NCBI GenBank assembly: GCA_022574595.1
Contig: JACZRS010000013.1
Location: 62,001 to 126,000, forward strand
DNA: 64,000 bases
Direction: 5' to 3'
DNA from: Planctomycetota bacterium
GTDB taxonomy: Bacteria; Planctomycetota; Phycisphaerae; Phycisphaerales; SM1A02
This document shows, piece by piece, positions 30,763 to 50,154 of the stretch. The translations under genes and the position numbers were made by a program. The notes below the pieces were generated by a model. That model saw only the letters and a program-made list of their open reading frames with translations. It searched no databases and was not told the origin of the DNA. How positions within the stretch are numbered: the first letter of the stretch is position 1; every line of letters starts with the position of its first letter.

Positions 30763-31572
30763 TTAACGCGCCATCTCAGCGCTTACCCATTGGCGGTTTC
30801 GGTAGTACGCTTTTGACCCATCAACTAAAAGTGTTTGTTGCAGATTATCTGGATCAACTTCAAGTAGTGGTCGTGCATCCGTAAACAATTCATCCGCTGA
30901 CCATGTTCGATTATCTCCAGCGAGCAATGCTGCTTCAAGCTGCAACATGGATAAAAGATCATTACCTGCAATTGTCGGGCTTCTACCGCTGCGATAGAGC
31001 TTGCAGTCTTCTATAAACCGCTGCACGCCACCGCGCAAGACTCCGCCTGCTGCTTCTAATAATTCAGTTGCGCCCGGAGTATTAAGAGCAGCAATAGCGC
31101 GGTTGCCGTTACCTTTTCTGTAATGCGATAAAGCCTCGCTTACCGCCAATGCTGCACTGGGGCTAATCTGCTTGACCTGTGTTGTTTGCACCCAAGCTAC
31201 ACTACCTCCTCTTTCATCAAGAAGATCGCTAAGAGCTAAAAGGCGCTGTTTGTGGTGGACTCTGCTTTCCATATCCGCAAGAGCCAGGCACGCGCTTCGC
31301 CCAAGATTCTTAGGATCCAGCACACCTGATAGCGCAAATAGATGCTGAGCAAGTTTGCGGTGATATTCATCGTTAGCTGCATCTGCGATTTCCTCAGCCA
31401 ATTCGAAATACGCAAGAGGATTTGCTGGAGTTAAGGATTCCAGTCGCTGCTTCCACTGATCTACCTCATCAATCGTAGTTGCTGATGCGTTCTCTTGCTT
31501 ATCCGCAGCAATTACAGCAATTGTAATTAATGCTAACAATATAAGAAGCAATTTCCTGAGCTTTATATTCAT
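30763..31572 (-). CDS. Secreted helical-repeat protein of the motor operon
   Basis: The 269-residue protein has an N-terminal signal or anchor (LLLILLALITIAVIAA). The rest is helical with TPR-like stretches (ANPLAYFELAEEIADAANDEYHRKLA). It overlaps the upstream 980-residue gene by ATGA. No named family is recognised. The periplasmic location and position in the ExbBD operon suggest an accessory or adaptor subunit. Confidence 0.75.
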   Translation of the reverse strand: MNIKLRKLLLILLALITIAVIAADKQENASATTIDEVDQWKQRLESLTPANPLAYFELAEEIADAANDEYHRKLAQHLFALSGVLDPKNLGRSACLALADMESRVHHKQRLLALSDLLDERGGSVAWVQTTQVKQISPSAALAVSEALSHYRKGNGNRAIAALNTPGATELLEAAGGVLRGGVQRFIEDCKLYRSGRSPTIAGNDLLSMLQLEAALLAGDNRTWSADELFTDARPLLEVDPDNLQQTLLVDGSKAYYRNRQWVSAEMAR

Positions 31573-34511
31573 TGCCTACCTCCACCAGTGGTGCTGACAT
31601 CCAAACGCAGGCTCCAAACCTCCATGATTGTGCGTTCTATATCTGTTGCTTGATTTAGTACTTTGTTAATCCCACTACGCCTTACAGTTGCGCTAGCTAG
31701 CAGCGATCGCAAGCGCTCTGCAAGTTCTGGCTGCTCAGCAGATGTAATGTAAACAAGTAAATCTAAAACCGCTAATTGCTGAGCAACGAATTGCTGTAAG
31801 GTACCCTGGGCTAAAGATAGTCGCGATATCGCCCTGCGCCCTATTGATGAAAGATCGCCCGGTACCGGATCCGAAACAATGGCTGAGATCGCACGATCTC
31901 GCCACGCTTGGGCGAGCTGTTGAGCTGCATCGGTTGGTGAATTTGCGCCTGCGATCGGCCTAAGGTGTCCCTTGAGACTTGCGGTCCTGTTTATGTAAGA
32001 TTCTGAGATTAACTCACTAAGAAGATTTATCTGAGAATTGCCCACCACTTGCAAACGCAAACAATGCTCAACTAAGGCTAAGCGAGCTTCTGATTTCCAG
32101 GAAGTAGAGCGCACGGGGCCAAGCAGTTGTCCCGTCAAACGAGTTATAGCATCAGAAAGCACGCCGCTTGAAGTTACACCTGGAAATTGATCAAGCAATT
32201 CCAAAGCAACATTTGGGCCGTTTGAGAATTGCTCCACAAGAACCGAGCCGGCAAAAGCGCGCACCTCCTGTGGTGAACCTCGATAAATAATATTCACAAA
32301 TACTTCCGCATCGATAGGCCCAAGGTCCGTCCCTGCATCATCACGCAACATGCGAAGTAATTTAAGCTTCTGGGGTGTATTGCGCCCCTCTTGCTCAAAT
32401 GTAACCGCCCACATTGCATCATTACCAATTGCCTGGCCTGGAAGGCTATCTCTTCGAGAGAATTTGGGACGAGCAAGTACATCAGAATTGGGCGATGCAA
32501 TCGCAGATTCTGTACGGTATATAAGTTCACGCGCAACTATGGTTTTGCTTGCTACTAGTCTAGCTGCTGCTTCGTTTAGCCAACTGCTAATAAGCAATTG
32601 CTTCATTAAACCTTTGCGTCGATTTGGCAACGGGTCTGAAAGAATCTGCTCTACTAACGCTATCCATCGTGGGCCAAGTGTTGCATCAACAGACAAACCA
32701 CCTACAGCATCCGCAAAATCAACAACTTTATCCGCTTCGTCAGGCCATCTCAGCATTATGCGATCAGCAGTACGCCGCCTACGAACCCAATCTGCATCGT
32801 AGGCTAACACCAAATCTTCGCTAAACCATGAAGCTATTTGGGATTGCGCTAACAAACTTGTAAGCACCCACAGATCATCGTTGCCAATATTATCTGGATC
32901 ATCAAACAAAGCCTTGACGCTCTGCTTTACCATATTACTTGCGCGAAAATCTGCCATCGAGAGCAATCGGCCTAGAACATTAATGCTTGGTCCCGGATTG
33001 GATAGATCCGTCGAAGTTTGCATGATGACTGTTACGGTTCTTAAAAGTGCGCTATTCAGTCGCTCGCCTTGTGCTAAATATCTCTGAGCGCGAAGCCAGC
33101 ATTCCCAATAGTTATATATATCAGCTTCAAACTCTAAAACATCGACTAATTTGTGGGCTGCCTGGTCTAGCCACAATTGAGCACTTGATGAATTGCCTGT
33201 TTGGGTAACATGGAATTGATCTTCAATTGCAACATCCAGTTGCAGGCGTGCTTGATCTACCACCGCGGGCGCAAGATCCTTTCGCTCACTAATTTTCTGC
33301 AAAGTCAAGACCATCCACATGCCGCGCCAAATCTCAATCGGCTCATAAAACCGTTTTGTGTTTGGTGTTAGAGCAGATAATAGTTCATCGGAAACACTTG
33401 GCTTATCCGCAGCAGCATAAAATACTTCAAGGATCGCTGAGTCCAAATCTTCCTGCATACGAGCATCTAGTAACAACCAGGCATCACCTATAGTTTCGAT
33501 TATTTCCTTCCAATCGCGGTACACAGTCAGCGATGGTTCTTTAGCAATGATAATTTTTCGCGCAATCAAATCCAACTCATCCGGAAACTCCGCACATTCA
33601 TTAAGCGCTTCTGCCGCTGCTGTTGGAACCGATTCACCTAGAAAAGTAGGGATTTGTTGGAAATTTGCTATTCGCCTGCTTGAAGTATCAGGGTTTGGGA
33701 TTGCGTTTGCTTCATCCGTTAAGGAAGTATCAACCACCGGCAACTGCGACTTGATATTATCTGTGGTCGTATCTTTACTTGGAAATAAGGCAACACGAGC
33801 TATTACAAGCATGACTATCAGTGTAATTGTGCCGAACAAGAATGATAGCTTGATCTTGGTCCAGGTATGATCTTCTAAAAGTTGATTGCTTGGGGGAATA
33901 TAAGCAATAGGCTCTTGGATATCCATTGAAGCGGCAACAAGAGATGATTCAATGCGCCCCTGGCCAGATGTAATTTCTTCAACACCTAAGCGCGGCCCGC
34001 CTGACTTTGCATATTCACTTAAGCCTGTAACAACTCTTACCAAACCCTGTACGCTCAGGCCGTTTCCAGCAGCAAGTGCAACCAGCTTCGCTCTACTTGC
34101 GAAATTCCAGCCGCCACAACCAACCAGCACAGCCATTACTTGACGATCAAACATCGTAAGTTCACTGGAGCTAGGGCGAGCGCCAGAACGAGGCATCCAG
34201 CCAGGCGTGTTGCGTGAGGGTAATTTGCTGACTGTTTGTGGCTGAGGCCGCTGCGCTATCTTCGAATCAACAATACCTACGCCAAATTTAGCTACTTTTG
34301 TTAGCAGACTTGCCGCTTCGCGCAATTGCTTGCGAACTTCACTTGCTTCTTCATTTAGCCCTTCCGGATGAGCCTCAACTTGACTTAACCTCTTGCGCAA
34401 AGCTGCATCAATTTGCTCTATAGAAGATTTCGCTTGAGGTAAATCAAGTAATTCCCACGGGGGAGAATTACCTTTTACACCAATAAAACGCTGCATCGGA
34501 TCCATAGTCAC
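31569..34511 (-). CDS. Large single-pass membrane protein of the motor operon
   Basis: The 980-residue protein starts at GTG 34511 (GTGA overlap with the previous stop) or ATG 34505. The N-terminal 75 residues (PPWELLDLPQAKSSIEQIDA, then EAHPEGLNEEASEVRKQL) resemble a degenerate J-domain-like helical hairpin with HPE in place of HPD. A Pro/Ser-rich linker and a helix-rich stretch follow. One membrane helix lies near 222-245 (LSFLFGTITLIVMLVIARVAL). About 700 residues of helical repeats follow, predicted periplasmic. It would span the inner membrane, with a cytosolic head and a long periplasmic arm. No named family. It may be the scaffold of the complex. Confidence 0.75.
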   Translation of the reverse strand: MTMDPMQRFIGVKGNSPPWELLDLPQAKSSIEQIDAALRKRLSQVEAHPEGLNEEASEVRKQLREAASLLTKVAKFGVGIVDSKIAQRPQPQTVSKLPSRNTPGWMPRSGARPSSSELTMFDRQVMAVLVGCGGWNFASRAKLVALAAGNGLSVQGLVRVVTGLSEYAKSGGPRLGVEEITSGQGRIESSLVAASMDIQEPIAYIPPSNQLLEDHTWTKIKLSFLFGTITLIVMLVIARVALFPSKDTTTDNIKSQLPVVDTSLTDEANAIPNPDTSSRRIANFQQIPTFLGESVPTAAAEALNECAEFPDELDLIARKIIIAKEPSLTVYRDWKEIIETIGDAWLLLDARMQEDLDSAILEVFYAAADKPSVSDELLSALTPNTKRFYEPIEIWRGMWMVLTLQKISERKDLAPAVVDQARLQLDVAIEDQFHVTQTGNSSSAQLWLDQAAHKLVDVLEFEADIYNYWECWLRAQRYLAQGERLNSALLRTVTVIMQTSTDLSNPGPSINVLGRLLSMADFRASNMVKQSVKALFDDPDNIGNDDLWVLTSLLAQSQIASWFSEDLVLAYDADWVRRRRTADRIMLRWPDEADKVVDFADAVGGLSVDATLGPRWIALVEQILSDPLPNRRKGLMKQLLISSWLNEAAARLVASKTIVARELIYRTESAIASPNSDVLARPKFSRRDSLPGQAIGNDAMWAVTFEQEGRNTPQKLKLLRMLRDDAGTDLGPIDAEVFVNIIYRGSPQEVRAFAGSVLVEQFSNGPNVALELLDQFPGVTSSGVLSDAITRLTGQLLGPVRSTSWKSEARLALVEHCLRLQVVGNSQINLLSELISESYINRTASLKGHLRPIAGANSPTDAAQQLAQAWRDRAISAIVSDPVPGDLSSIGRRAISRLSLAQGTLQQFVAQQLAVLDLLVYITSAEQPELAERLRSLLASATVRRSGINKVLNQATDIERTIMEVWSLRLDVSTTGGGRQ

Positions 34512-37075
34512 TGCAAGCGCCCTTCAAGCGAATTAATGCGTTTATCAAGAGCCGCAAGTAATGCGCGCCAAGGCTCAGGTCCATAATCAGGATTCAACAG
34601 CTTCAGTTGATGCATAACTGCTCTGGCTCGCTGCAAATCCATCTCAGCTAAAACTAATATAAGGTGATATTTCGCTTCATACCATGATTCTGTACTTTGA
34701 TCACTGCCCGCAACTAAAGCTCGCCAACATGTAAGAGCACGCTGATTATTTCCTGATTTTTCAGATAATTCAGCTACAGCTCTTAAAACGTGTGCATCCC
34801 GTGGGCGCACGCTTAGCACCTTTTCATAGAGTATTAATGCATCATGTGCGCTTTGCTGGATTGCGTATTCTTTGAATTGCTGCATTAGAGCATCGGCAAC
34901 CGCTATGTGATATGCCAACACGCTGCTGCGCTTTATTGAATCGGGCTGAGCTTCAAATTCAGTCAAAATCCGCTGCCCGCATTTGACGATTAATCCCAAG
35001 GCTTCTGGAACATTAGTATTATTTTTTAGCTGCTGGCGCACCGAGTTAAATACTGTTCGTTGTGCCCCGCGCGACCATATTGATCCTTGATTACGCTGCC
35101 ATAACTCTCTGGCCACCCTGGCAGCGGCAAAAGTATTGTTATTTAGCAAACTTTCCTGCACTCGCCTGTAATCAATTTCATCTTGATAAGGAAGTAAGTC
35201 AAATTCGAGTCTATCTAGAGCATCAAACGCTTTTGTTGCGACGAGCAGTTGTGCAACTTCTTCACTAAGCGCTACTTCAAGGATTCGCCGACACCTCGAA
35301 ATGTATTGTTCGTTGCTTGCTGCATCCATATCAGGCGCATCATTTAATAATGGTGCCGCCACAACCAGATATTCCTTGCCATAGGTACTACGTTGAGTGC
35401 CTGATGAATCTCGAAACAGTTTGTATAGCGCTAGTGCTGCTTGTTTTCGTGCATCTTCGTATGCTTCACTATTTGCTGGAACCGATAGCAGTTCCTCTAT
35501 TACCTTTAGTGATGTAGACTTGCTGGCAGCCGCTCGTTTAACTATTAAACGTGGTGCCCGTGGGCTTGAAGGATACTGCGCTAAAAACCTGCTGATAAGT
35601 GAAGATAATTCTGCCGCTAGTGATGGGCTATTTGAAGCTTTAACAATATTGTCCAGACAAATAATGGCCATCCACAAAGCTTCAGGCGCATCCTCAGCTG
35701 GCAATTCATCAATAACTTCTTCAAATTCACTGCGTGCATCCAGGAATCGACTCTGAAAGTAACTACACCAGGCAATAAGCCATCTACAACCCGCAGCTGC
35801 TTGGGTATAACGGAACGCATCCGGTTCGGATAAGGCCGCTTCAAGTTCAACAGCTGCCCGTTCATATAATTCTACTAATCTCATCTCTACGGTTGGCCGC
35901 TGCGAACCGTGCAAGTCTCGTGCGCGTTGATAATGCCCAACCCCACGAACATAACGCATAGCAAATCCCGAACTGCCAAGCGCATCCGCACCATAGCGCT
36001 GCGCTAAATCTGATACTTGCTGCAATTCTCCTCTAGCTGCTAACTGTGCGACCGCCCATTGCGCAAGCTTTCCCGCTTCAGCATTTTGACTCTTAGCTTC
36101 AAGTGCATAAACCGCAGCCAATCGGATCCAAGTTAGTGGAACTTGCTCGTCTGCCTGCACATTCTCTAATATCGATCGTGCTGCTCGAAATTCATCATGC
36201 TCCAGATGTACAGTTATTTTCCAAACCGGAGCTTGAGTGCGCAGCTCACCGAATGTTTGTTCATGCTCTAAAAGTTGCACCCACCTGATCGCTGTAATAG
36301 AGCTTGCGGTAAGCGATTTACATAAAGCCATTCCCAGAATCGAACGCGCTATGGCTTCATTAGAACGCAAATCCACTGAGATATCTTCAGGTTGAGGGCG
36401 TGATGATTCAGCTTCTAATAAATCCGCAAATAGAACTTCCGCTATCCTGGCGTTTTCTGATCTTTGGTGTAGCCATGACTGGTAATAAAGCGCCCAAGCG
36501 TTTAGAAACTTACACTGAGCTAACAACCTATGGTATCTTTTCGCTTCTTGGACAAGAGTAACCATCTGTGCACCACTTGCGCGTATTAACCTGCGCTCCG
36601 CAAGATCCGATTGCTTCCTCAAATGCATGCGCAAATCGCGCAATTTCGGTATAAGGCCGGTAAGCGTTTCCTTGGCTTGATCCACTTGCTGTGGAGTACT
36701 TTGCCTGAGCCTGTGATCTTCTGCAATTTTCTCCGCAGCCCTAAAGGAACCTCTAAAGAGCGCCAGGCGCAGCTCATCCGTACTTTCTTTGGGAGCTGTA
36801 GCAAGTAACTTTTGTGCTCGCTGCTCAAGATCAATTCGATCAGCTTGATCGCTAGCAGCTTCAAGTAACTGTGAATATATTGTTGCAAGTCGCATCACTA
36901 AATCATTACGCTCTTCACCTTTAGCAGCTTCTAGCTGTTCTTGAAGATGTATTGCCAGGAGCTTGGATAAACCCAACCTCTCAAGGTAATCAGCAACATC
37001 ATCCGCCCTTGCGTTAGTAGCGAGTGTTGCCAGGAAAACGATAACGAGCAATACACCCCTACTTGGCCGGCACAT
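34508..37075 (-). CDS. Secreted TPR-like repeat protein of the motor operon
   Basis: The 855-residue protein has a signal peptide (GVLLVIVFLATLATNARA, cleavage near 24). It is built almost wholly of helical TPR/HAT-like repeats, clearest near the C-terminus (LILYEKVLSVRPRDAHVLRA, then SWYEAKYHLILVLAEMDLQR). It overlaps the ExbD2 gene by 17 bases and the 980-residue gene by GTGA. A periplasmic interaction scaffold is the likely role. Its partner is unknown, but the VWA protein and the 980-residue protein are candidates. Confidence 0.8.
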   Translation of the reverse strand: MCRPSRGVLLVIVFLATLATNARADDVADYLERLGLSKLLAIHLQEQLEAAKGEERNDLVMRLATIYSQLLEAASDQADRIDLEQRAQKLLATAPKESTDELRLALFRGSFRAAEKIAEDHRLRQSTPQQVDQAKETLTGLIPKLRDLRMHLRKQSDLAERRLIRASGAQMVTLVQEAKRYHRLLAQCKFLNAWALYYQSWLHQRSENARIAEVLFADLLEAESSRPQPEDISVDLRSNEAIARSILGMALCKSLTASSITAIRWVQLLEHEQTFGELRTQAPVWKITVHLEHDEFRAARSILENVQADEQVPLTWIRLAAVYALEAKSQNAEAGKLAQWAVAQLAARGELQQVSDLAQRYGADALGSSGFAMRYVRGVGHYQRARDLHGSQRPTVEMRLVELYERAAVELEAALSEPDAFRYTQAAAGCRWLIAWCSYFQSRFLDARSEFEEVIDELPAEDAPEALWMAIICLDNIVKASNSPSLAAELSSLISRFLAQYPSSPRAPRLIVKRAAASKSTSLKVIEELLSVPANSEAYEDARKQAALALYKLFRDSSGTQRSTYGKEYLVVAAPLLNDAPDMDAASNEQYISRCRRILEVALSEEVAQLLVATKAFDALDRLEFDLLPYQDEIDYRRVQESLLNNNTFAAARVARELWQRNQGSIWSRGAQRTVFNSVRQQLKNNTNVPEALGLIVKCGQRILTEFEAQPDSIKRSSVLAYHIAVADALMQQFKEYAIQQSAHDALILYEKVLSVRPRDAHVLRAVAELSEKSGNNQRALTCWRALVAGSDQSTESWYEAKYHLILVLAEMDLQRARAVMHQLKLLNPDYGPEPWRALLAALDKRINSLEGRLQ

Positions 37076-37481
37076 ATGTCACCTTCTTAAAACCAGCATC
37101 GTGCGCTGCTTGCATGGCAGCTGTGGCGTGCGCAACATCCACATCATCAAATACGTTGATAAATACTCCCGGAGCTTTAGGCAAAGCTTTAAGAGCCTCT
37201 AATAGATGTTGTTTATTGCGAAATATCCGAGCGCCTAACACAAACGCCGGTGCACCATCTACAAGCTTAACTTCTACTATCTGTGGCTCAAAATCGCTAT
37301 TGCTACCAACAAAGCTGTCACGCTGTGTTTGTAAGCCCGGGCTTAAGCGATCTTCCGGCTGCGCCAGAACAGTTGTCACCATAAAATATAACAACAGCAA
37401 AAACGTCACATCAATCATGCTGGCAAGATTGAGCGTGATTTCTTTTTCTCTGCGTGAAGATTTTTTTCGCTGAATTCTCAC
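37059..37481 (-). CDS. ExbD/TolR family proton-channel subunit, second copy
   Basis: The 140-residue protein has a basic N-terminus (RIQRKKSSRREKE). One membrane helix, LASMIDVTFLLLLYFMVTT, has the essential Asp at position 24. A periplasmic domain follows, ending in GFKKVTYVPAK, as in the TolR/ExbD fold. In ExbD and TolR the Asp carries protons through the ExbB/TolQ pentamer. It lies 17 bases after the first ExbD gene. The two ExbD copies differ clearly in the periplasmic part, so they may form a heterodimer in the channel. Confidence 0.9.
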   Translation of the reverse strand: MRIQRKKSSRREKEITLNLASMIDVTFLLLLYFMVTTVLAQPEDRLSPGLQTQRDSFVGSNSDFEPQIVEVKLVDGAPAFVLGARIFRNKQHLLEALKALPKAPGVFINVFDDVDVAHATAAMQAAHDAGFKKVTYVPAK

Positions 37482-37498: not shown

Positions 37499-37927
37499 TC
37501 ACCTTGGTACTTCCGTAGCGATTCTTGCTGCTCCGATATTTAGTGATTGAAGCAATGTAACTACCTGGTTAAGCCTGGCTGATTCCGCGTTTTTATCTGC
37601 TCTAATAAGTAGCTTTAACTGATGTGCAGATCGATCAGGATACTTGGCAATTTCTTGCTTAACTAAATACTCAAGTTCCGTAAGATCTAGTGATGCATCA
37701 TTAACTATGATCTCTCCGCCTTCAGTAATATTTATCACAAGTCCCGCTTCTACCGGCGTAGGGTCTTGTTCGCCTGATTCTTGTGGCAATGAAACCTCTG
37801 CACGCGTCATCTTGGCAAACTGAGCAGTAGTCATAAAAAAGATTATCAGCAAAAAGACCACATCGATCATTGATGTGAGTTCAACGTTTATGGTGCGCTT
37901 ACGTCTTTCTGCTTCTACAAATCTCAC
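37499..37927 (-). CDS. ExbD/TolR family proton-channel subunit, first copy
   Basis: The 142-residue protein has the standard layout: cytosolic RKRTINVELT, a membrane helix SMIDVVFLLIIFFMTTAQF with Asp22, and a periplasmic domain (LVINITEGGEIIVND, then LKLLIRADKNAESARLNQVV). Its start overlaps the ExbB gene by ATGA. Together with the ExbB-like and second ExbD-like proteins it should form the proton-driven stator of the complex. Confidence 0.95.
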   Translation of the reverse strand: MRFVEAERRKRTINVELTSMIDVVFLLIIFFMTTAQFAKMTRAEVSLPQESGEQDPTPVEAGLVINITEGGEIIVNDASLDLTELEYLVKQEIAKYPDRSAHQLKLLIRADKNAESARLNQVVTLLQSLNIGAARIATEVPR

Positions 37928-38706
37928 TTCTTATTCCCGTCGTTAGGCTTTGTAGTAGCACTAGAGCCTGGAGCAGGCGCTGGCTGCGTAGGCCGGGGCA
38001 CACTAGAAGCAGGCCTGGCGCTTGCCTGAGGCCCAGCGCCTGATTCAAGATGCAATACAAGTCGTTCGATTTCCATCGCAGCTTCTGATGCTAAAGCATC
38101 AATGCGATTACCAAAGTATCGATAAAGCGAAACACACGGGATTGCCAGGATCAATCCCATTAATGTTGTCACTAATGCCAAGCTGATATTTCCAGCCAAC
38201 GCCTCATGATCCGGCGTAGCGCCATGTTGCAAAGCTTCAAAAGCGCCAATCATACCCCAAACGGTACCAAGCAACCCTAATAAGGGCGCTATCGAACCAA
38301 TAACCCCAAGAGCGTCAGTTGATCGATATAGCTTGGCGGTCTGGTCTTCACCCGCTTCTTCAATGGCGTTTTTTATTTCAAAGACCCCAAATGCTGACTT
38401 TTGAAATCTAGTTAAACCTGCTGAAAGTATGCGCGTTAAATATGAAACATTTGGAGGATCAAGACAGTATTCCAAAGCTCCATTAACATCACCTCTAGCT
38501 AACATTGCATCAATCTGCTCAAGATGAACATCGGGAATAAGGGCGCTACGCCTGATTTGAACCAGGTGCATTACGATTAGTGCTAAGGCAATTACGCTTA
38601 GCGCTATTATCACATATCCAACCAAACCGCCTGATTGGATAGTGTCCAGCCAAGTTTTGCTTTCGCCCGCAACTGCTTGGGCCAAGATAAAAATGAAATT
38701 AGACAT
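37924..38706 (-). CDS. ExbB/TolQ/MotA family proton-channel protein
   Basis: The 260-residue protein has three membrane helices: TM1 about 29-50 (GYVIIALSVIALALIVMHLV), TM2 about 132-158 (GVIGSIAPLLGLLGTVWGMI) and TM3 about 175-200 (SLALVTTLMGLILAIPCVSL). TM2 and TM3 carry the Gly/Thr pattern that lines the ExbB channel. The C-terminus is a Pro/Ala/Ser-rich tail of about 35 residues. It sits directly before the two ExbD genes. Confidence 0.95.
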   Translation of the reverse strand: MSNFIFILAQAVAGESKTWLDTIQSGGLVGYVIIALSVIALALIVMHLVQIRRSALIPDVHLEQIDAMLARGDVNGALEYCLDPPNVSYLTRILSAGLTRFQKSAFGVFEIKNAIEEAGEDQTAKLYRSTDALGVIGSIAPLLGLLGTVWGMIGAFEALQHGATPDHEALAGNISLALVTTLMGLILAIPCVSLYRYFGNRIDALASEAAMEIERLVLHLESGAGPQASARPASSVPRPTQPAPAPGSSATTKPNDGNKK

Positions 38707-38726: not shown

Positions 38727-39803
38727 CTATTTTGATGATTTTTCAGGAAGCGTATTCAAGTGGATCGGGTGATTAGGTAAGGATCGTCTTAATTCTAAAC
38801 CTAAAGCATCCGCTGCTTCATAATCTCCCAAAGCCTTTAGCGCAATAGAAGCGTCGGATAATGCCAAACCTGCTAAGTAGGGTTGAGAGCGAACAAAACG
38901 TGCGGGCACATGCAGCAGATTTACTACGCCCTGAAGCTGTCTGCCTTGGCCATCTTCAGATATTAGAGATAGTCCAATCATCATATACGACCAGGCGTTG
39001 GTCCAATGCTGCTCATTAGTAATTTTACGACGCAATCGCTCTCGTGCGTTATTGCGCTTATCTGATTCCTTGTCTCGACAGAAAACCAGCAAACTTAAAA
39101 ACTTAACTCCATCATGGTTGGTCAATTGTTGGCCTTGAATTTGCGTTTGGGGTTCTCCCAGGGTTTGCTGCACAGCCTGTTTATATAGACTCGCAATTGC
39201 TGCAATTGTTTCATCGCCCTGAGCATCAAATTCTCCAAGGTCATGTACCAGCTTTTTTAACAAGGGTGAGCCCAGCCAGACAGGCGCTAACTGTGGACAC
39301 AAAGATCGCTTATCATCCATGACAGACTGAAGCATCGAGTAAATATCGGTACTGACCTCTGCGCGCAATAGCCGAGCAGTTTCTAATGCTGGGATAACAG
39401 CTAGTATATGATCCCCTCGCGCTAATCTGCAACGCAATAATCCCTCCGCCACGACTAGCGCTGTCTCATGCGTTTGCCCTCGATATTGCTCAAATAGCCG
39501 TTCAAACAATGGTTCAGCCAAGGTTGTATCGTTTCGTTGTACTCGGCTACGCGCACGCCAAAGATCAGTTGCTACTTCCAATTTGCTTTTTAATGTTTGT
39601 TCTAATTTTTCACTATCAACATCTTTAACTCGATCCCAAGGAACATAGTGCTTAGCTCCCAGTTCAGTTATCACATTAACCCCAGCATCATCGATTGAAA
39701 TCCTGCCTTGAATTGGTGGAACTCCTCCACGTTGATAAACCGTATCCGCCAAGATTGCTTGCGCGAAAAATAACATCGCAATAATCGTGATGCAAAATCT
39801 CAT
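38727..39803 (-). CDS. Secreted protein of the motor operon, unknown family
   Basis: The 358-residue protein has a signal peptide (FCITIIAMLFFAQAILA, cleavage near 19). A short beta-rich start follows (TVYQRGGVPPIQGRISIDDA, then HYVPWDRVKDV), and after it about 280 helical residues. It lies three bases after the VWA gene and 20 before exbB. It is likely periplasmic. Its place between the VWA arm and the ExbB channel gene suggests a contact partner of one of them. No named family. Confidence 0.75.
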   Translation of the reverse strand: MRFCITIIAMLFFAQAILADTVYQRGGVPPIQGRISIDDAGVNVITELGAKHYVPWDRVKDVDSEKLEQTLKSKLEVATDLWRARSRVQRNDTTLAEPLFERLFEQYRGQTHETALVVAEGLLRCRLARGDHILAVIPALETARLLRAEVSTDIYSMLQSVMDDKRSLCPQLAPVWLGSPLLKKLVHDLGEFDAQGDETIAAIASLYKQAVQQTLGEPQTQIQGQQLTNHDGVKFLSLLVFCRDKESDKRNNARERLRRKITNEQHWTNAWSYMMIGLSLISEDGQGRQLQGVVNLLHVPARFVRSQPYLAGLALSDASIALKALGDYEAADALGLELRRSLPNHPIHLNTLPEKSSK

Positions 39804-39806
39804 TGT

Positions 39807-40799
39807 TTAATTATCCCCCGCTGTGACGAATCGATATATCCCGCCCGTCTGCCGCGCAATTGCGCGGAGTAAATCCTGGCTTGCTGGATCACCGAATGCG
39901 ATTGTGTTTATTACCACATTCTTGCCCCGGCTTTTAGTAGATGGCAGCTCATCGGCACTGAAATCTGGGATTTTGCCATCTGTCATGAAATAGATAACAT
40001 CAGGACGTTCATCAAGTGAAAAAACTCTCTCAAAGCCTGGTCTTGGATTAGTACCGCCGCGAGGCTCTACTTGTCCGAACCATCGAACGAATTTGCGTAC
40101 AGTATTAGGCCTGGCGCGCGTCCAACCGCTTTGCATTGGCGGCATCTGCGCATCTGTTGAAAAAAGCACAACATAAAAATATGCGTAATCAGGCAGCTCG
40201 CTGATTGAACGCGCTAACTCGCGCATTGCAATGTGAATCTTTCGCTGCTGCCCCATTGAACCTGAAACATCCACAACATAGGCAAACCTTGAGCCGCGCG
40301 AGCTTACTCCAAAGAAACTTGTGCCTGCACTTCCACCGCCTAAAGTATCATCACCACTTCCATCACCGGACCCGCCAAGCGTAGGCATTGATCCTGCATT
40401 TGAAATTTCCAAGTTTGCAGCAGTAGCATCAACTGCAAGATCAGCAGAGGGTGAATCCTCTGCCATGTCATCCAGTTCAGCGCTCAATTCAAGATGCAAA
40501 TCATCGAATATTGGCTCATCTATATTGGTCAATTCTTGATCTTGTAAAGTTGCAAACTCAACTAAAAGCGGTTCAGTCGGACTACCAGCAGCTCCACCAC
40601 GTCGAAGCAGATTCAAATAAGCCATAAAACTCAAATGAACAACAATGGATAATGCCACAGCTATCAACAATATTTTTCGGCGGCGTTTCCTGCTCGTCTC
40701 ATCTCTGCGTAGCTGCAATTCAGCTACGTTTGCATGCAGATTGGCAACTTCAGCTTTTAGCTTATTAATTTGGCTCGGATTATTAATTGAACTATTCAC
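39807..40799 (-). CDS. VWA-domain protein with a TonB/TolA-type anchor helix
   Basis: The 330-residue protein has a cytosolic coiled segment (about 12-35) and a single membrane helix (43-65) after RKRRRK. The helix contains SIVVH (Ser51, His55), the SxxxH motif that TonB and TolA use to couple to ExbB-ExbD or TolQ-TolR. A Gly/Ser/acidic linker (70-165) leads to a VWA domain (172-330). It has an intact MIDAS: DVSGS (Asp177, Ser179, Ser181), Thr250 in GGTNP and Asp274 in MTDGK. First gene of the operon. The TonB-like anchor is seen in the sequence; energised movement of the VWA domain is inferred. Confidence 0.85.
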   Translation of the reverse strand: MNSSINNPSQINKLKAEVANLHANVAELQLRRDETSRKRRRKILLIAVALSIVVHLSFMAYLNLLRRGGAAGSPTEPLLVEFATLQDQELTNIDEPIFDDLHLELSAELDDMAEDSPSADLAVDATAANLEISNAGSMPTLGGSGDGSGDDTLGGGSAGTSFFGVSSRGSRFAYVVDVSGSMGQQRKIHIAMRELARSISELPDYAYFYVVLFSTDAQMPPMQSGWTRARPNTVRKFVRWFGQVEPRGGTNPRPGFERVFSLDERPDVIYFMTDGKIPDFSADELPSTKSRGKNVVINTIAFGDPASQDLLRAIARQTGGIYRFVTAGDN

Positions 40800-42280: not shown

Positions 42281-42338
42281 TTTTCGATATTTATTTCAGG
42301 CCAACTGGCTGTATCATATTCCTCTATAAAGGAGTTTG

Positions 42339-44540
42339 ATGATGATGTTGTTGTTGGGCCTAATGTGTACTGCTACTGCGGTGCCGCCGATCGTTGTGGT
42401 AGATCGGGATAATATTCAAATCACACAATCCTGCTCAATTAGTATTGATGCAGATTACATTATTGACACAGACAATAACGGCGTCTTGCACATTACCGGC
42501 AATGATATCGTTGTAGATTTTAACGGCTCAATTTTACATGGTGCAAACTCTACTCAGATGCCTGATACTTTCACCGGAATAGGTGTACGAATTACCGGCC
42601 AACATGTTACGCTTAAAAACGCTCATGTTTCAGGTTACAAAGGTGGGATTTACGCAACCAACACAAACAATCTCATTATCGAAGATTGTGATATTTCAGG
42701 TAACTACCAGCAGCGACTACGTTCAACACCTAAAGCAGAAGATGGAGTTGATTGGTTATATCCACATAACAACGATAATAACCAATGGCTCACTAACTAT
42801 GGTGCTGGCATTTATATAGAAGACTCTAACGATGTGACAGTCACGCGAGTCTACGCAAGAAACGGACAAAACGGCATCATCCTGGATCGCGTTAACGACT
42901 CGGTAATTTACGATAACGATTGTTCATTCATATCCGGCTGGGGATTAGCACTATGGCGAAGCAGTAATAATATAATCTCACGAAACGCATTTGATTTTTG
43001 TATACGAGGTTATAGCCACGGTGTATATAACCGTGGACAAGATTCGGCCGGACTGTTAATGTTTGAACAATGTAGCGGCAATGTTATTACAGAAAATTCT
43101 ATAACCCATGGCGGCGACGGTATCTTTGCCTTTTCAGGTCGAGAAGCGCTTGGCGAAAAAGTCCCACCCAAAAGCGCAAACGTGACCGATGAAAATATCG
43201 AGTGGTATCGTGGACGTGGCAACAGCGGCAACATCTTCCTGGGTAACGATTTATCCTACGCTGCAGCGCATGGACTCGAATTAACTTTTGCCTTTAACAA
43301 CACCATTGCACAGAACCGTATGGTTTCAAATGCAATCTGCGGAATCTGGGGTGGTTATTCCAAGGCTACAACTATTGTAAAAAATACTTTCAAAGACAAC
43401 GGCGATATGGCTTATGGCTTAGAACGCGGCGGCATTAACATCGAACATGGACGGGACAATTGGATTCAATCTAATACCTTTGAAAATAACGCGTGCGGCA
43501 TTCACCTTTGGTGGGATCCCGATGTGGGCTTAACCAAGACACCTTGGGGGAAAATCAACGGCGTAAAATCTTTCCGCAACGTGATCTACGGAAACACTTT
43601 CACTAAGGATAAGGTTGCAATCCATCTCCGCGAGTCTGATACAACTTTCATAGTCTCAAATGAAGTAACAAACGTCGAAGTCCAACTTCTCGCTGATGAA
43701 CTAAGTCGATCCAACATAAAGCGGCACCTTGATGCGCCTGAGCTAAATTGGTCGCTACCTGAATATGAACCGCTTGGCGAAACAAGGCCTATTGGCGCAC
43801 GCGCTCATCTTGCGGGTCGAAAAAATATAATTATGACAGAATGGGGGCCATACGATTGGCAGTCTCCGCTTCTAACTTTGGTTGAAAAAACTGCGGATCG
43901 TCACGTTTATCGAATGCTTGGTAAGGAACAAATTCAGTCCGTCTCGCTTAAAGCTCATAATAAAGATGATGTAAAGTATGATCTTGTTGGTTCAACTCTG
44001 ACGTTGACCACAACCGCTAAGGATAAACTGGTTGAGTACGCGATCACCACAACAACTAAGTCAGGCCCGCAACGAGTAAGCAATACATTTATGCCCATGC
44101 AGTGGGAAGTACTTTGTTTTAGCTACGAAACTGATCCACGTGAAGATGTCAAAGCATGGCGAAAAGAAGCAACCACCCACCAAAATGCCAAAGCAACTTT
44201 AGCTTCGCTCGATCTTACATTTGCTATGCGCGGGCCAAGCAATGCGGGAATAAAAACTGAAGGTGATGCTGAGCAATTGCCTGACAATCATTTCGGTACA
44301 TTCGCAGATTCCAGTATCACCCTACCGGCCGGCACATGGCGCTTAAAAACCACCTCCGATGATGGCATCCGCGTCTGGCTCGACAACAAAGTGGTAATAG
44401 ATGATTGGACCTGGCATGCACCAACACCACACAACTACGAGTTCACACTAACGCACCCCAGGAAAATCACATTACACGTTGAACACTTCGAATTAGACGG
44501 CTACGCAATCCTAACCCTGGAAATCGAGCGCGCGGAGTAG
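42339..44540 (+). CDS. Secreted right-handed beta-helix protein with C-terminal PA14 domain
   Basis: Several start codons in a row (TTG 42336, ATG 42339, 42342 and 42345) follow AAAGGAG; 42339 is chosen. The product, about 733 residues, has a short hydrophobic leader (MLLLGLMCTATAVPP). A NosD/pectate-lyase-type parallel beta-helix follows at about 45-450, with repeated N-x-I/V turns (GIYIEDSNDVTVTRVYARN, GWGLALWRSSNNIISRNAF). A middle beta-domain follows, then a PA14 domain at about 620-733 (LPAGTWRLKTTSDDGIRVWL, then VIDDWTWH). PA14 usually binds carbohydrate, so a surface polysaccharide-binding or -cutting enzyme is likely. It lacks a dockerin. Confidence 0.85.
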   Translation: MMMLLLGLMCTATAVPPIVVVDRDNIQITQSCSISIDADYIIDTDNNGVLHITGNDIVVDFNGSILHGANSTQMPDTFTGIGVRITGQHVTLKNAHVSGYKGGIYATNTNNLIIEDCDISGNYQQRLRSTPKAEDGVDWLYPHNNDNNQWLTNYGAGIYIEDSNDVTVTRVYARNGQNGIILDRVNDSVIYDNDCSFISGWGLALWRSSNNIISRNAFDFCIRGYSHGVYNRGQDSAGLLMFEQCSGNVITENSITHGGDGIFAFSGREALGEKVPPKSANVTDENIEWYRGRGNSGNIFLGNDLSYAAAHGLELTFAFNNTIAQNRMVSNAICGIWGGYSKATTIVKNTFKDNGDMAYGLERGGINIEHGRDNWIQSNTFENNACGIHLWWDPDVGLTKTPWGKINGVKSFRNVIYGNTFTKDKVAIHLRESDTTFIVSNEVTNVEVQLLADELSRSNIKRHLDAPELNWSLPEYEPLGETRPIGARAHLAGRKNIIMTEWGPYDWQSPLLTLVEKTADRHVYRMLGKEQIQSVSLKAHNKDDVKYDLVGSTLTLTTTAKDKLVEYAITTTTKSGPQRVSNTFMPMQWEVLCFSYETDPREDVKAWRKEATTHQNAKATLASLDLTFAMRGPSNAGIKTEGDAEQLPDNHFGTFADSSITLPAGTWRLKTTSDDGIRVWLDNKVVIDDWTWHAPTPHNYEFTLTHPRKITLHVEHFELDGYAILTLEIERAE

Positions 44541-45228: not shown

Positions 45229-46458
45229 ATGTGGTTCAAGTCAAGATTCACAATCTCGTCGGTCATTGCGATTAGTTTCTGCTTTATTAATGGGACGGTA
45301 CCCGTTGCAGCAGACATACTACACGTCCCTGGTGACTTCCCCACCATACAAGCAGGCATCAACGCAGCCCAAGCTGGCGATGAGGTCGTTGTCGCTGACG
45401 GGATCTACACAGGTCCCGGCAACCGAAATATATTGTTTGCCGGTAGAGCCATAACCTTGCGCTCAGAAAACGGCCCAACAAACTGTATCATCGACTGCGA
45501 GAGTCTAGGGCGAGGATTTATCTTCTACGAACTTGATACGCCCGCAACCATCGTTGAAGGCTTTACCATCACTAATGGGTTGGGCCACCCCGGAGGAGCT
45601 ATTTACGCTTACTACTTCAGTAGCCCCACTATCAAAAACTGCATTATCACAGGCAACGCCGGAGACGCTGGTGGCGGTGGCGGATTTTACTGTGCAATGT
45701 GCTTTTCAACAATCTCAAACACAATCATTACAGGCAACACAGCTAACGGCAACGGTGGTGGCATTTACTCCGAAGGCGGCGACCTCACTATCATCAACTC
45801 CTTGATCTCCGAGAACACTGCAAGCTTAAGCGGCGGTGGCGTGTATTCCGATTGGGGTAGCACGACAATCATCAATTCCATATTCGCTGGGAACTCTGCG
45901 GCGAACCTTGCAGGGGGTGGCTACTTCGGTGGAAAGAGCAATCCCTCAATCACTAACTCAGTTTTCTGGGGCAATGGGCCGGAATCGATATACAGTGGTT
46001 TATACAACGGCCTGGAAGTCAGCTACAGCAATATACAGGGTGATTGGCCGGGCGCTGGCAATATCAACCAGAATCCAATGTTTGTTAATCCCGCTAATGG
46101 AGATTACTACCTGTCTTTCGATTCGCCTTGTATTGATGCGGGAATTAACGCAGCTGTTCCACTTGGAACTGTCACCGACTTAGCTGGCAATACTCGGTTT
46201 GTCGATGACCCCAACACAAAAGATACCGGCTTAGGCAAACCGCCTCTGGTTGACATAGGCGCACTTGAATTCCAAGTAATTGTACAATGCCCTTGGGATC
46301 TTGATGCAAATCAGAGTGTGGGCATAAGCGACCTGCTAATCTTGTTCGCAGCCTGGGGCCCCGTCCCCACACCCGACCCACCCGACTTCGACGGCGACAG
46401 CATCGTCAACACCACCGATCTACTAATCCTCTTCGCCAATTGGGGTCCATGCCCGTAA
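45229..46458 (+). CDS. Secreted beta-helix protein with dockerin pair
   Basis: ATG 45229 follows AAGGAGG. The 409-residue protein has a signal peptide (ISSVIAISFCFINGTVPVAA). It carries a Pfam-beta-helix-type region (GGGGFYCAMC, GGGIYSEGGDLTIINSLISE, GGGVYSDWGSTTIINSIFAG) and the SPCIDAG...DLAGN...DIGALEFQ ending typical of these planctomycete proteins. The dockerin pair follows (LDANQSVGISDLLILFAAWG and FDGDSIVNTTDLLILFANWG). Its first 80 codons are clearly homologous at DNA level to the gene starting at 61011. Confidence 0.9.
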   Translation: MWFKSRFTISSVIAISFCFINGTVPVAADILHVPGDFPTIQAGINAAQAGDEVVVADGIYTGPGNRNILFAGRAITLRSENGPTNCIIDCESLGRGFIFYELDTPATIVEGFTITNGLGHPGGAIYAYYFSSPTIKNCIITGNAGDAGGGGGFYCAMCFSTISNTIITGNTANGNGGGIYSEGGDLTIINSLISENTASLSGGGVYSDWGSTTIINSIFAGNSAANLAGGGYFGGKSNPSITNSVFWGNGPESIYSGLYNGLEVSYSNIQGDWPGAGNINQNPMFVNPANGDYYLSFDSPCIDAGINAAVPLGTVTDLAGNTRFVDDPNTKDTGLGKPPLVDIGALEFQVIVQCPWDLDANQSVGISDLLILFAAWGPVPTPDPPDFDGDSIVNTTDLLILFANWGPCP

Positions 46459-47574: not shown

Positions 47575-50154
47575 ATGTGGAAACTCTCTCTTTGTCGAAG
47601 TGCTTGTGTAAGCTTATTTATTACAAGTTTGTGCATGGCATCAACTGCATCAGTTGAAGTAGTTCTGTACGTTGATAATGATGCACCGCCGGGTGGTGAT
47701 GGGATGAGTTGGGATACCGCATATCAATTCCTGCAGGATGCGTTTGCTTATGCTTCCGATCAGGAAGTCAAAGAGATCCACGTTGGGGAAGGTTTCTATA
47801 AGCCGGATCTAAGCGAACGCAATCCCAAAGGGACGGGCCAGAGAGATGCTACGTTTCTTCTAATCAACAGCGTTGCAATCATGGGTGGTTATGCCGGTAT
47901 AGGTACAGACGATCCCAATGCCCGTGATATAGAGCTATACGAGACCACCCTTAGTGGCGATCTAGCAAACAACGACGGCCCACCCGGCTCGTTTGAGAAC
48001 AATGAAGAGAATAGTTACCACGTTGTAACAGGAAGCCAAACCGACGAAACCGCGATTATTGATGGATTTGTAATTACCGGTGGCAATGCAATCGACTCCG
48101 AATTCTATAAGTTTGGTGGTGGACTGTTCAATCTCACTGGAAGTCCTACTGTTAGCAATTGTTCATTTTCTCACCATACTGCGCGCCTAGGTGCCGGGAT
48201 GTACAACTCTGTTTCCAGTAGTCCCACTGTAACGAACTGTATTTTCTATGGGAATGTAGGTGCGGTCGGGACGACAGCAGGCGCAGGCATGTACAACTTC
48301 GGTGACTCTAATCCACTGATTGTCAATTGCTTATTCACCGAAAACGTTGCAATACAAGGCGGGGGGCTATATGCAAAGAACAGCAGTCCTGTGATCATTA
48401 ATTGCACTTTCAGCTTAAATAATGCCTCCGGTGGTGCTGCTGCCGTATTCTCAGGAGGAGGCGAACCATTCATTTTCAGCTGCACCTTTGAAGGTAACTT
48501 GGCTGAAAATAAGGGCGGGGCATTGCTTGTTGGGGGCAATACTAATATCACAATAACAAACTGTGATTTCATAAGTAACTCTACCGAGTCCCGAGGCGGT
48601 GCAGTTTATATAAATTGTCTTTCTTCAGAGATAATCGGCTGCACATTTTCAAATAATACTGCATCATTTAACGGTGGTGCATTAATGTTAAATTACATTG
48701 GCACACATACTTTGCACGACTCTGTATTTACAAACAATAATGCAGCAGTCGGAGGAGCTATGTACCACACAGCCACTGATACTCTAGTAAGTCAGGTCAC
48801 GTTTAGCAGTAATTCAGCGAGCGTTGGAGGAGGATTATATGTCGGTGAAGGCAATCTTGAACTGGAAGACGCTACCTTTCAAGAGAATGAAGCAGTATTC
48901 GGCGGTGCAGTCTACGTTGATCATGCAAATCCAACTCTTGAGAACTGCCTGCTCGATGACAACTTTGCAATACTTGACGGCGGTGGTCTTTATAACGATA
49001 TGGGAAGCCCCTCACTTATAAATTGCATCGTTCTATACAATAGCTCACTTGCTGACGGCGGCGGTATCTATAATATACACGGCGAAGTGTCGCTAGTTGA
49101 TTGCACAGTCAAAGCTAACTACGCACAGGCATTTGGCGCAGGAATGTTCAACTTTGCGGGAGAGTTATTTGCAGTCGGCACCACGTTCTCGCATAACTTG
49201 GCATTAGGATTTGGATTTGGCGGTGGACTATACAATGAACTCAGTAATTCGACACTAATTGATTGCGCTATATTTCAAAATACAGCAAGTCAGTTGGGCG
49301 GAGCAATGTATAACATTGACAGCAATCTGATAATAGAGAAGTGCAGGTTTACGGATAATAAATCTGAATGGGATCATGGCGGTGCAATGGCCAATTACTC
49401 CAGCTCCTTAGCCATAGTTAATAGTACATTCAGCGACAACGACTCAGGAGGAAAAGGCGGCGCTATGTACAACGAACAAAGCACTTCGCAGATTCTAAAC
49501 TGTATATTTTGGTTTAATCAGGCTATTGAATTCGGCGGCGGACTATCAAATATTTCCAGCGATACCACTATAATTAACACAACTTTCTACGCCAACAGTG
49601 CACTTGTTGGTTACGGCGGAGCCATAGCAAATGACCAAAGTACAATAAATATTGCAAACTCGATTCTTTGGGGTGATTTTCCAAGTGAAGTCCTTGATAC
49701 CCGGGGGTCACAATCTGTTATACGACATAGCAACGTCCAAGGCGGTTGGGGAGGTGACGGCAATATCGATCTTAATCCACTCTTTGAGGCAGAAGTTCCC
49801 TATGCTGATCAACTACGACTTACTCCCGGCTCACCTTGCATCGATGCAGGTGATAATTTTTCACTGCCCAAGGGATCCGAACTTGATCTCGATGGTAACC
49901 CTCGTTTTCTTGACGATCCTTGCGCAATTGATACTGGTAGTGGAAGTGTTCCCATAGTGGATATGGGAGCGTACGAGTTTCAAGGATCAAGCTGCGATCT
50001 TAACAGTGATGGTTTGGTAAATACCAGCGATCTGCTTTTACTCTTCGCTAATTGGGGGCCATGCGCTGATTGCGTCAACTGTCCGATCGATCTTGACAAC
50101 AACTGCAGCGTGGGACTTACCGATCTGGAAATACTTTTAGATAACTGGGGTTAA
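47575..50154 (+). CDS. Large secreted beta-helix protein with dockerin pair
   Basis: The 859-residue protein has a signal peptide (CVSLFITSLCMASTASVEV). The N-terminal segment LYVDNDAPPGGDGMSWDTAY is characteristic of planctomycete polymorphic beta-helix proteins. About 20 coils follow with GGG-[ML]-YN and NC.F..N turns (for example GGGLYNDMGSPSLINCIVLY, GGAMYNEQSTSQILNCIFWF). The SPCIDAGDN...DMGAYEF closing block and a dockerin pair end it (DLNSDGLVNTSDLLLLFANWG and LDNNCSVGLTDLEILLDNWG). It is a probable surface adhesin or polysaccharide-related protein; no catalytic residues can be assigned by eye. Confidence 0.9.
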   Translation: MWKLSLCRSACVSLFITSLCMASTASVEVVLYVDNDAPPGGDGMSWDTAYQFLQDAFAYASDQEVKEIHVGEGFYKPDLSERNPKGTGQRDATFLLINSVAIMGGYAGIGTDDPNARDIELYETTLSGDLANNDGPPGSFENNEENSYHVVTGSQTDETAIIDGFVITGGNAIDSEFYKFGGGLFNLTGSPTVSNCSFSHHTARLGAGMYNSVSSSPTVTNCIFYGNVGAVGTTAGAGMYNFGDSNPLIVNCLFTENVAIQGGGLYAKNSSPVIINCTFSLNNASGGAAAVFSGGGEPFIFSCTFEGNLAENKGGALLVGGNTNITITNCDFISNSTESRGGAVYINCLSSEIIGCTFSNNTASFNGGALMLNYIGTHTLHDSVFTNNNAAVGGAMYHTATDTLVSQVTFSSNSASVGGGLYVGEGNLELEDATFQENEAVFGGAVYVDHANPTLENCLLDDNFAILDGGGLYNDMGSPSLINCIVLYNSSLADGGGIYNIHGEVSLVDCTVKANYAQAFGAGMFNFAGELFAVGTTFSHNLALGFGFGGGLYNELSNSTLIDCAIFQNTASQLGGAMYNIDSNLIIEKCRFTDNKSEWDHGGAMANYSSSLAIVNSTFSDNDSGGKGGAMYNEQSTSQILNCIFWFNQAIEFGGGLSNISSDTTIINTTFYANSALVGYGGAIANDQSTINIANSILWGDFPSEVLDTRGSQSVIRHSNVQGGWGGDGNIDLNPLFEAEVPYADQLRLTPGSPCIDAGDNFSLPKGSELDLDGNPRFLDDPCAIDTGSGSVPIVDMGAYEFQGSSCDLNSDGLVNTSDLLLLFANWGPCADCVNCPIDLDNNCSVGLTDLEILLDNWG

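Follow-up and report, generated by a model that had tools for sequence, protein, structure and literature searches.

We conclude, at a probability of roughly 70%, that a 330-residue protein encoded in a planctomycete genome works as a TonB/TolA-type transducer of proton-motive force, with a VWA domain as its tip. In textbooks, proton-driven transduction to the outer membrane is the work of Ton and Tol; if our reading is true, the same type of motor also drives a metal-dependent grip, one that is widespread in planctomycetes and occurs where Ton and TolB are undetected. Conservation of the Ser/His pair, the MIDAS and the operon makes the question of a motor-driven arm directly testable by point mutants. 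The earlier note on this DNA had held that no TonB-type arm with a VWA tip was described, which is wrong: exactly this family, the vWA force transducers (Tichowtungia family), has been reported (Williams-Jones et al. 2025, Mol Biol Evol 42:msaf138, PMC12204202, Fig. 4a-b). The locus is a member of that family, and every family feature open to testing was found in it. The idea is thus already published, and what we add is stronger comparative evidence, an extended operon, and two apparently co-inherited systems per genome.

A VWA protein at the head of a motor-gene operon

The candidate force transducer is encoded by an open reading frame with a GTG start at positions 39807-40799 (minus strand) of the window, the whole 64,000-nucleotide stretch of DNA that was analysed, and its parts were assigned from the reading frame, Pfam, AlphaFold2 and sequence alignment. 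A cytoplasmic coiled helix (residues ~8-42) leads into a transmembrane helix (residues ~43-65), the only strong hydrophobic helix of the protein, which carries S51-I-V-V-H55 as the earlier note had claimed. Just after this helix stands the D-box-like strand PLLVEFAT, followed by a linker (residues ~70-157) and by a VWA domain with a MIDAS (residues 158-327). AlphaFold2 modelled residues 8-68 as one continuous helix, residues 70-157 as disordered (pLDDT <50) and a well-formed domain at ~158-327, with pLDDT mostly >90 across residues 158-327. By inspection, this protein has Arg where the SHLS motif ends in Ser. A reading of the helix as one that supplies its own pore Asp, as in TPH-type proteins, was ruled out, since the helix contains no Asp.

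The C-terminal domain has a VWA fold and is not a TonB or TolA C-domain. Pfam returned a match to VWA_3 (PF13768, E 8e-13), and the best matches of the modelled domain among solved VWA structures gave Z of 19-20 (up to 19.8). Residues D177, S179, S181, T250 and D274 of the MIDAS did not vary across 16 aligned homologues, and DxSxS was kept in all 47 of 47 motor-linked VWA relatives. The Pfam match, the modelled fold and the invariant residues bear out the earlier claim of a VWA domain with an intact MIDAS.

Downstream of the VWA gene, the operon continues on the minus strand with genes that overlap or are separated by gaps of up to ~20 bases. The first encodes a 358-residue periplasmic TPR-like partner (38727..39803), which has a signal peptide by inspection, occupies the same position in relatives and was modelled by AlphaFold2 with moderate confidence (mean pLDDT 69) as a small N-terminal beta domain followed by helical repeats. 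An ExbB/TolQ-family motor subunit of 260 residues (37924..38706) comes next, followed by two ExbD/TolR-family subunits of 142 residues (37499..37927) and 140 residues (37059..37481), both of which keep the pore Asp. A large periplasmic TPR-like protein of 855 residues (34508..37075), with a signal peptide by inspection, is likewise conserved in the operon. It is followed by a 980-residue protein (31569..34511), which has one internal transmembrane helix by inspection and no Pfam match; most relatives within the family likewise have its gene at the 3′ end of the operon. A 269-residue secreted or anchored protein (30763..31572), also without a Pfam match, is encoded by a gene that overlaps the preceding one and is probably an operon member. 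Close by beyond it, in the same direction, lie a DUF2064/CofC-like gene and a response-regulator gene.

The earlier note had described an operon of four genes in which the VWA gene precedes exbB and two exbD. The VWA gene does stand at the head, and the three motor genes are present; however, the gene for the 358-residue TPR-like protein separates the VWA gene from exbB, and more genes follow in the same direction than the note had listed. This gene order is common to relatives of the same family and order, and the nearest named records are metagenome-assembled genomes of Phycisphaerales and other planctomycetes, which makes a Phycisphaerales-like planctomycete the most probable host. Among plasmid records there was no relative. 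Elsewhere in the window, large secreted proteins with parallel beta-helix-like repeats are encoded on the plus strand at 42336-44540, 45229-46458 and 47575-50154, the latter two products ending in dockerin-like DxNxDGxxxxxDLLxLFANWG repeats.

The SxxxH helix among VWA homologues

VWA proteins with an N-terminal membrane helix were sorted by whether an ExbB gene adjoined them on the same strand, and the motif was counted by a loose rule, so that proteins with early-called starts or with a MIDAS that misfits the pattern were included. SxxxH was present in 46/46 non-redundant ExbB-adjacent proteins, as against 3/23 of those with visible context and no ExbB (Fisher p ~1.5e-14, a figure that is indicative because the sequences are related). 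Across 47 motor-linked proteins, Ser and His were each kept in 47/47; between -12 and +39 relative to the motif no other column was invariant, and neighbouring helix positions varied. The earlier note had proposed a search for further proteins in Planctomycetota with an SxxxH helix and a VWA domain beside exbB-exbD; a phylum-wide sample contained six more motor-linked proteins with SxxxH, together with one tandem pair carrying AxxxH, so that of the two residues the His is the more strictly kept. The AxxxH pair, in which Ser is naturally replaced by Ala, adjoins ExbB/ExbD at L167:6651-8779; further VWA proteins in tandem were seen in L093, L094 and L116.

Most homologues without the motif were distant verrucomicrobial proteins whose surroundings contain no motor gene; several of these proteins keep the His as AxxxH. 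Those without both residues were distant verrucomicrobial orphans, again with no motor gene nearby; the earlier note had named the loss of both Ser51 and His55 as an observation that would count against coupling, and no such loss was found among motor-linked homologues. Several planctomycete VWA proteins carry SxxxH, yet no ExbB lies within several kb in the stretch read. Motor linkage therefore predicts SxxxH, whereas SxxxH does not require linkage. Two further cases were noted in passing. A VWA homologue at L032:1387-2406 has an intact MIDAS and SLAVN in place of SxxxH, on a contig that ends before the expected motor genes. In a related family, paralogous VWA proteins at L105:7485-8744 and L106:7313-8731 keep SxxxH and have D-x-S-G-A at the MIDAS; no ExbB gene was found near either, and this branch is possibly motor-less or degenerate.

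These distributions bear on two explanations in which the motor does not drive the VWA protein. A single SxxxH in a single hydrophobic helix could arise by chance, in which case motif and gene neighbourhood would be coincidental and the helix a plain anchor; but the motif is invariant over dozens of relatives down to ~30% identity, recurs in two paralogous systems and goes with co-inheritance, and we consider coincidence extremely improbable. An anchored assembly or chaperone role is often assigned to paired VWA and TPR proteins such as those of the Bat group, and the VWA and TPR gene pairs here resemble Bat-type operons. The VWA protein could then be an anchored factor of this kind, standing beside the motor or helping to build it without being driven by it, and the existence of orphan VWA homologues without motors fits such a role. 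Left unexplained, however, would be the invariance of the helix Ser and His in proteins with a linked ExbB and their absence from most motor-less homologues, which makes an assembly role improbable.

The same genome contains a second, paralogous VWA-TPR-ExbB-ExbD-ExbD-TPR operon (L097:7822-14660, contig C10), whose VWA protein carries SFGLH in its helix. The later MIDAS positions of this protein look altered, with GRSNP and LSEN replacing GGTNP and MTDG. The VWA-domain tree and the ExbB tree share the same deep A/B split between the two systems, so that either arm seems to have kept to its own motor and, as far as the trees can tell, VWA and ExbB appear to be co-inherited.

Six MotA/ExbB-family loci, one of them part of the second VWA operon, were counted in the genome, which also has OmpA-domain proteins and flagellar genes including a MotA-like gene; a TonB C-domain (TonB_C) had no match anywhere in it. 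One further locus (L118:6874-12905, contig C1) combines ExbB with a single ExbD, is flanked by genes for 1050-residue and 1589-residue proteins and adjoins apparent BlaI/BlaR-type genes, with no SxxxH arm flagged nearby. We also considered whether the main role of the VWA system is to stand in for TonB, and ruled this out, since the system occurs in relatives both with and without TonB_C; as relatives with TonB also have it, it does not simply replace TonB.

Proposed docking site and mechanism

In TonB, the D-box is a short strand after the helix that is captured by ExbD and in which hydrophobic and hydrophilic residues alternate (PMC10907165). A D-box-like 6-mer was found 26-34 residues after the Ser in 20/47 relatives, compared with 5.6 expected from shuffled linkers; its most common start was at a distance of 27 residues. 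With a strict 7-residue version the excess stood out less clearly (8/47 versus 2.7 expected), and PLLVEFAT in the VWA protein fits six of the seven D-box positions by inspection.

On the motor side, Ser16 and His20 of E. coli TonB touch ExbB Ser34 and Trp38, which are linked to Pro190 (PMC12215075). The ExbB of the operon keeps the equivalents of T148, T181, S34, P141 and P190 and has Leu at the equivalent of W38; the E. coli reference sequences used are consistent at these sites with the published residue numbers. Among the ExbBs of this set, the pore residues Thr148 and Thr181 were kept in 33/33, Ser34 in 33/33 and Pro190 in 31/33, and the ExbD pore Asp was kept in 61/61. Ser34 is not specific evidence, because it also occurs in two ExbB-family proteins outside such operons. 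None of the 33 ExbBs has Trp at position 38, where Leu, Ile, Val or some other residue stands instead; judged from the aligned residues, the docking site therefore resembles the E. coli TonB-ExbB site without its contact network being identical. Together, a motif that follows motor linkage (46/46 versus 3/23), an enriched D-box-like strand, conserved motor residues and the apparent co-inheritance of VWA and ExbB support the coupling of helix to ExbBD that the earlier note had proposed.

From these features we infer physical docking, force transmission, metal binding and the identity of a ligand for the VWA arm, as follows. The SxxxH helix would dock on the outside of the ExbB pentamer, and the short strand after it would be captured by the periplasmic domains of the two ExbDs. 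As protons flow through ExbB/ExbD, the flexible linker and the VWA domain would be pulled, rotated or otherwise moved. The VWA domain would hold a divalent metal at its MIDAS and bind an acidic residue of a partner, force thereby being applied to the VWA-partner complex. The partner would most likely be a periplasmic TPR protein of the operon, or an envelope component reached through the TPR proteins. No other periplasmic proteins are linked as constantly as the TPR proteins, which puts them first among the candidates. Adhesion, which the earlier note had suggested for the VWA domain, is a conjectural role.

The main rival to force transmission is a gating or sensing role, in which the SxxxH helix docks on ExbBD all the same and the VWA protein acts as a sensor or gate: a ligand on the VWA domain would open or close the channel for protons, while the work itself would fall to the TPR proteins or to further clients of the motor. 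The same contacts would fit gating, since the orientation of the TonB/TolA helix has been proposed to signal to ExbB Pro190 (PMC12215075). The linker of the VWA protein is, moreover, short and disordered, and its conserved partners include two large TPR proteins of the periplasm. Against this, the D-box-like strand, which is the proposed force handle of TonB, is enriched after the helix and favours pulling, and we regard a gate or sensor as unlikely, albeit less so than an assembly factor.

Beyond the force-transducing arm itself, a broader picture can be sketched, one that we find worth proposing while leaning slightly against it. The lineage may possess two parallel, separately inherited VWA arms, each with an ExbB, two different ExbDs and TPR partners of its own, and its ExbBD-type motors may serve neither Ton nor canonical Tol. 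Alongside those two, the arms would then form a third class of envelope machine powered by protons, one that exerts force on a dedicated TPR-built structure through a metal-dependent VWA grip.

Comparison with known transducers

With TonB and ExbB-ExbD, the locus shares the SxxxH helix, the D-box-like strand, and ExbB and ExbD subunits with the pore Thr and Asp residues. It differs in having a VWA tip instead of TonB_C, two different ExbD genes and a replaced ExbB Trp38, and a search of its genome returned no match to the TonB-dependent receptor plug domain. With TolA and TolQ-TolR (Tol-Pal), it has in common the SxxxH helix and a TolQ/TolR-like motor, and Tol operons too include a periplasmic TPR protein; in contrast to TolA, however, it bears a VWA tip and no TolA C-domain, and its linker is disordered rather than helical. 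The TolB N-domain (PF04052) had no match in the 21 genomes searched, this one included.

Two published families combine a membrane helix with a VWA domain. The TPH-vWA proteins, the second family of PMC12204202 (Fig. 4c-d), resemble the locus in that helix and VWA domain adjoin a tolQ-like gene. Unlike the locus, with its SxxxH and two linked exbD genes, they lack the SHLS residues, supply their own pore Asp and have no exbD gene. The operon genes are not mentioned in the main text of two transposon essentiality studies, on planctomycetes and Verrucomicrobium, nor are VWA partners mentioned in a phylogeny paper on MotAB stators.

The vWA force transducers are the closest counterpart. Reported in Planctomycetes among others, they have an SHLS-type transmembrane helix, a ~100-residue linker with a predicted motor box and a C-terminal VWA domain, and their neighbours are a TPR gene, a tolQ-like gene and two different tolR-like genes; an AlphaFold3 complex of the family placed the His on the motor, and no phenotype is known for them according to that study (PMC12204202). 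Our locus shares the Ser/His transmembrane helix, the disordered linker with its D-box-like strand, the VWA C-terminus without a TonB or TolA C-domain, and the linked TPR, tolQ-like and two tolR-like genes. It departs from the described family in that the last Ser of SHLS is absent, the operon includes another large TPR-like gene plus two more conserved genes, and its genome contains a second complete paralogous system.
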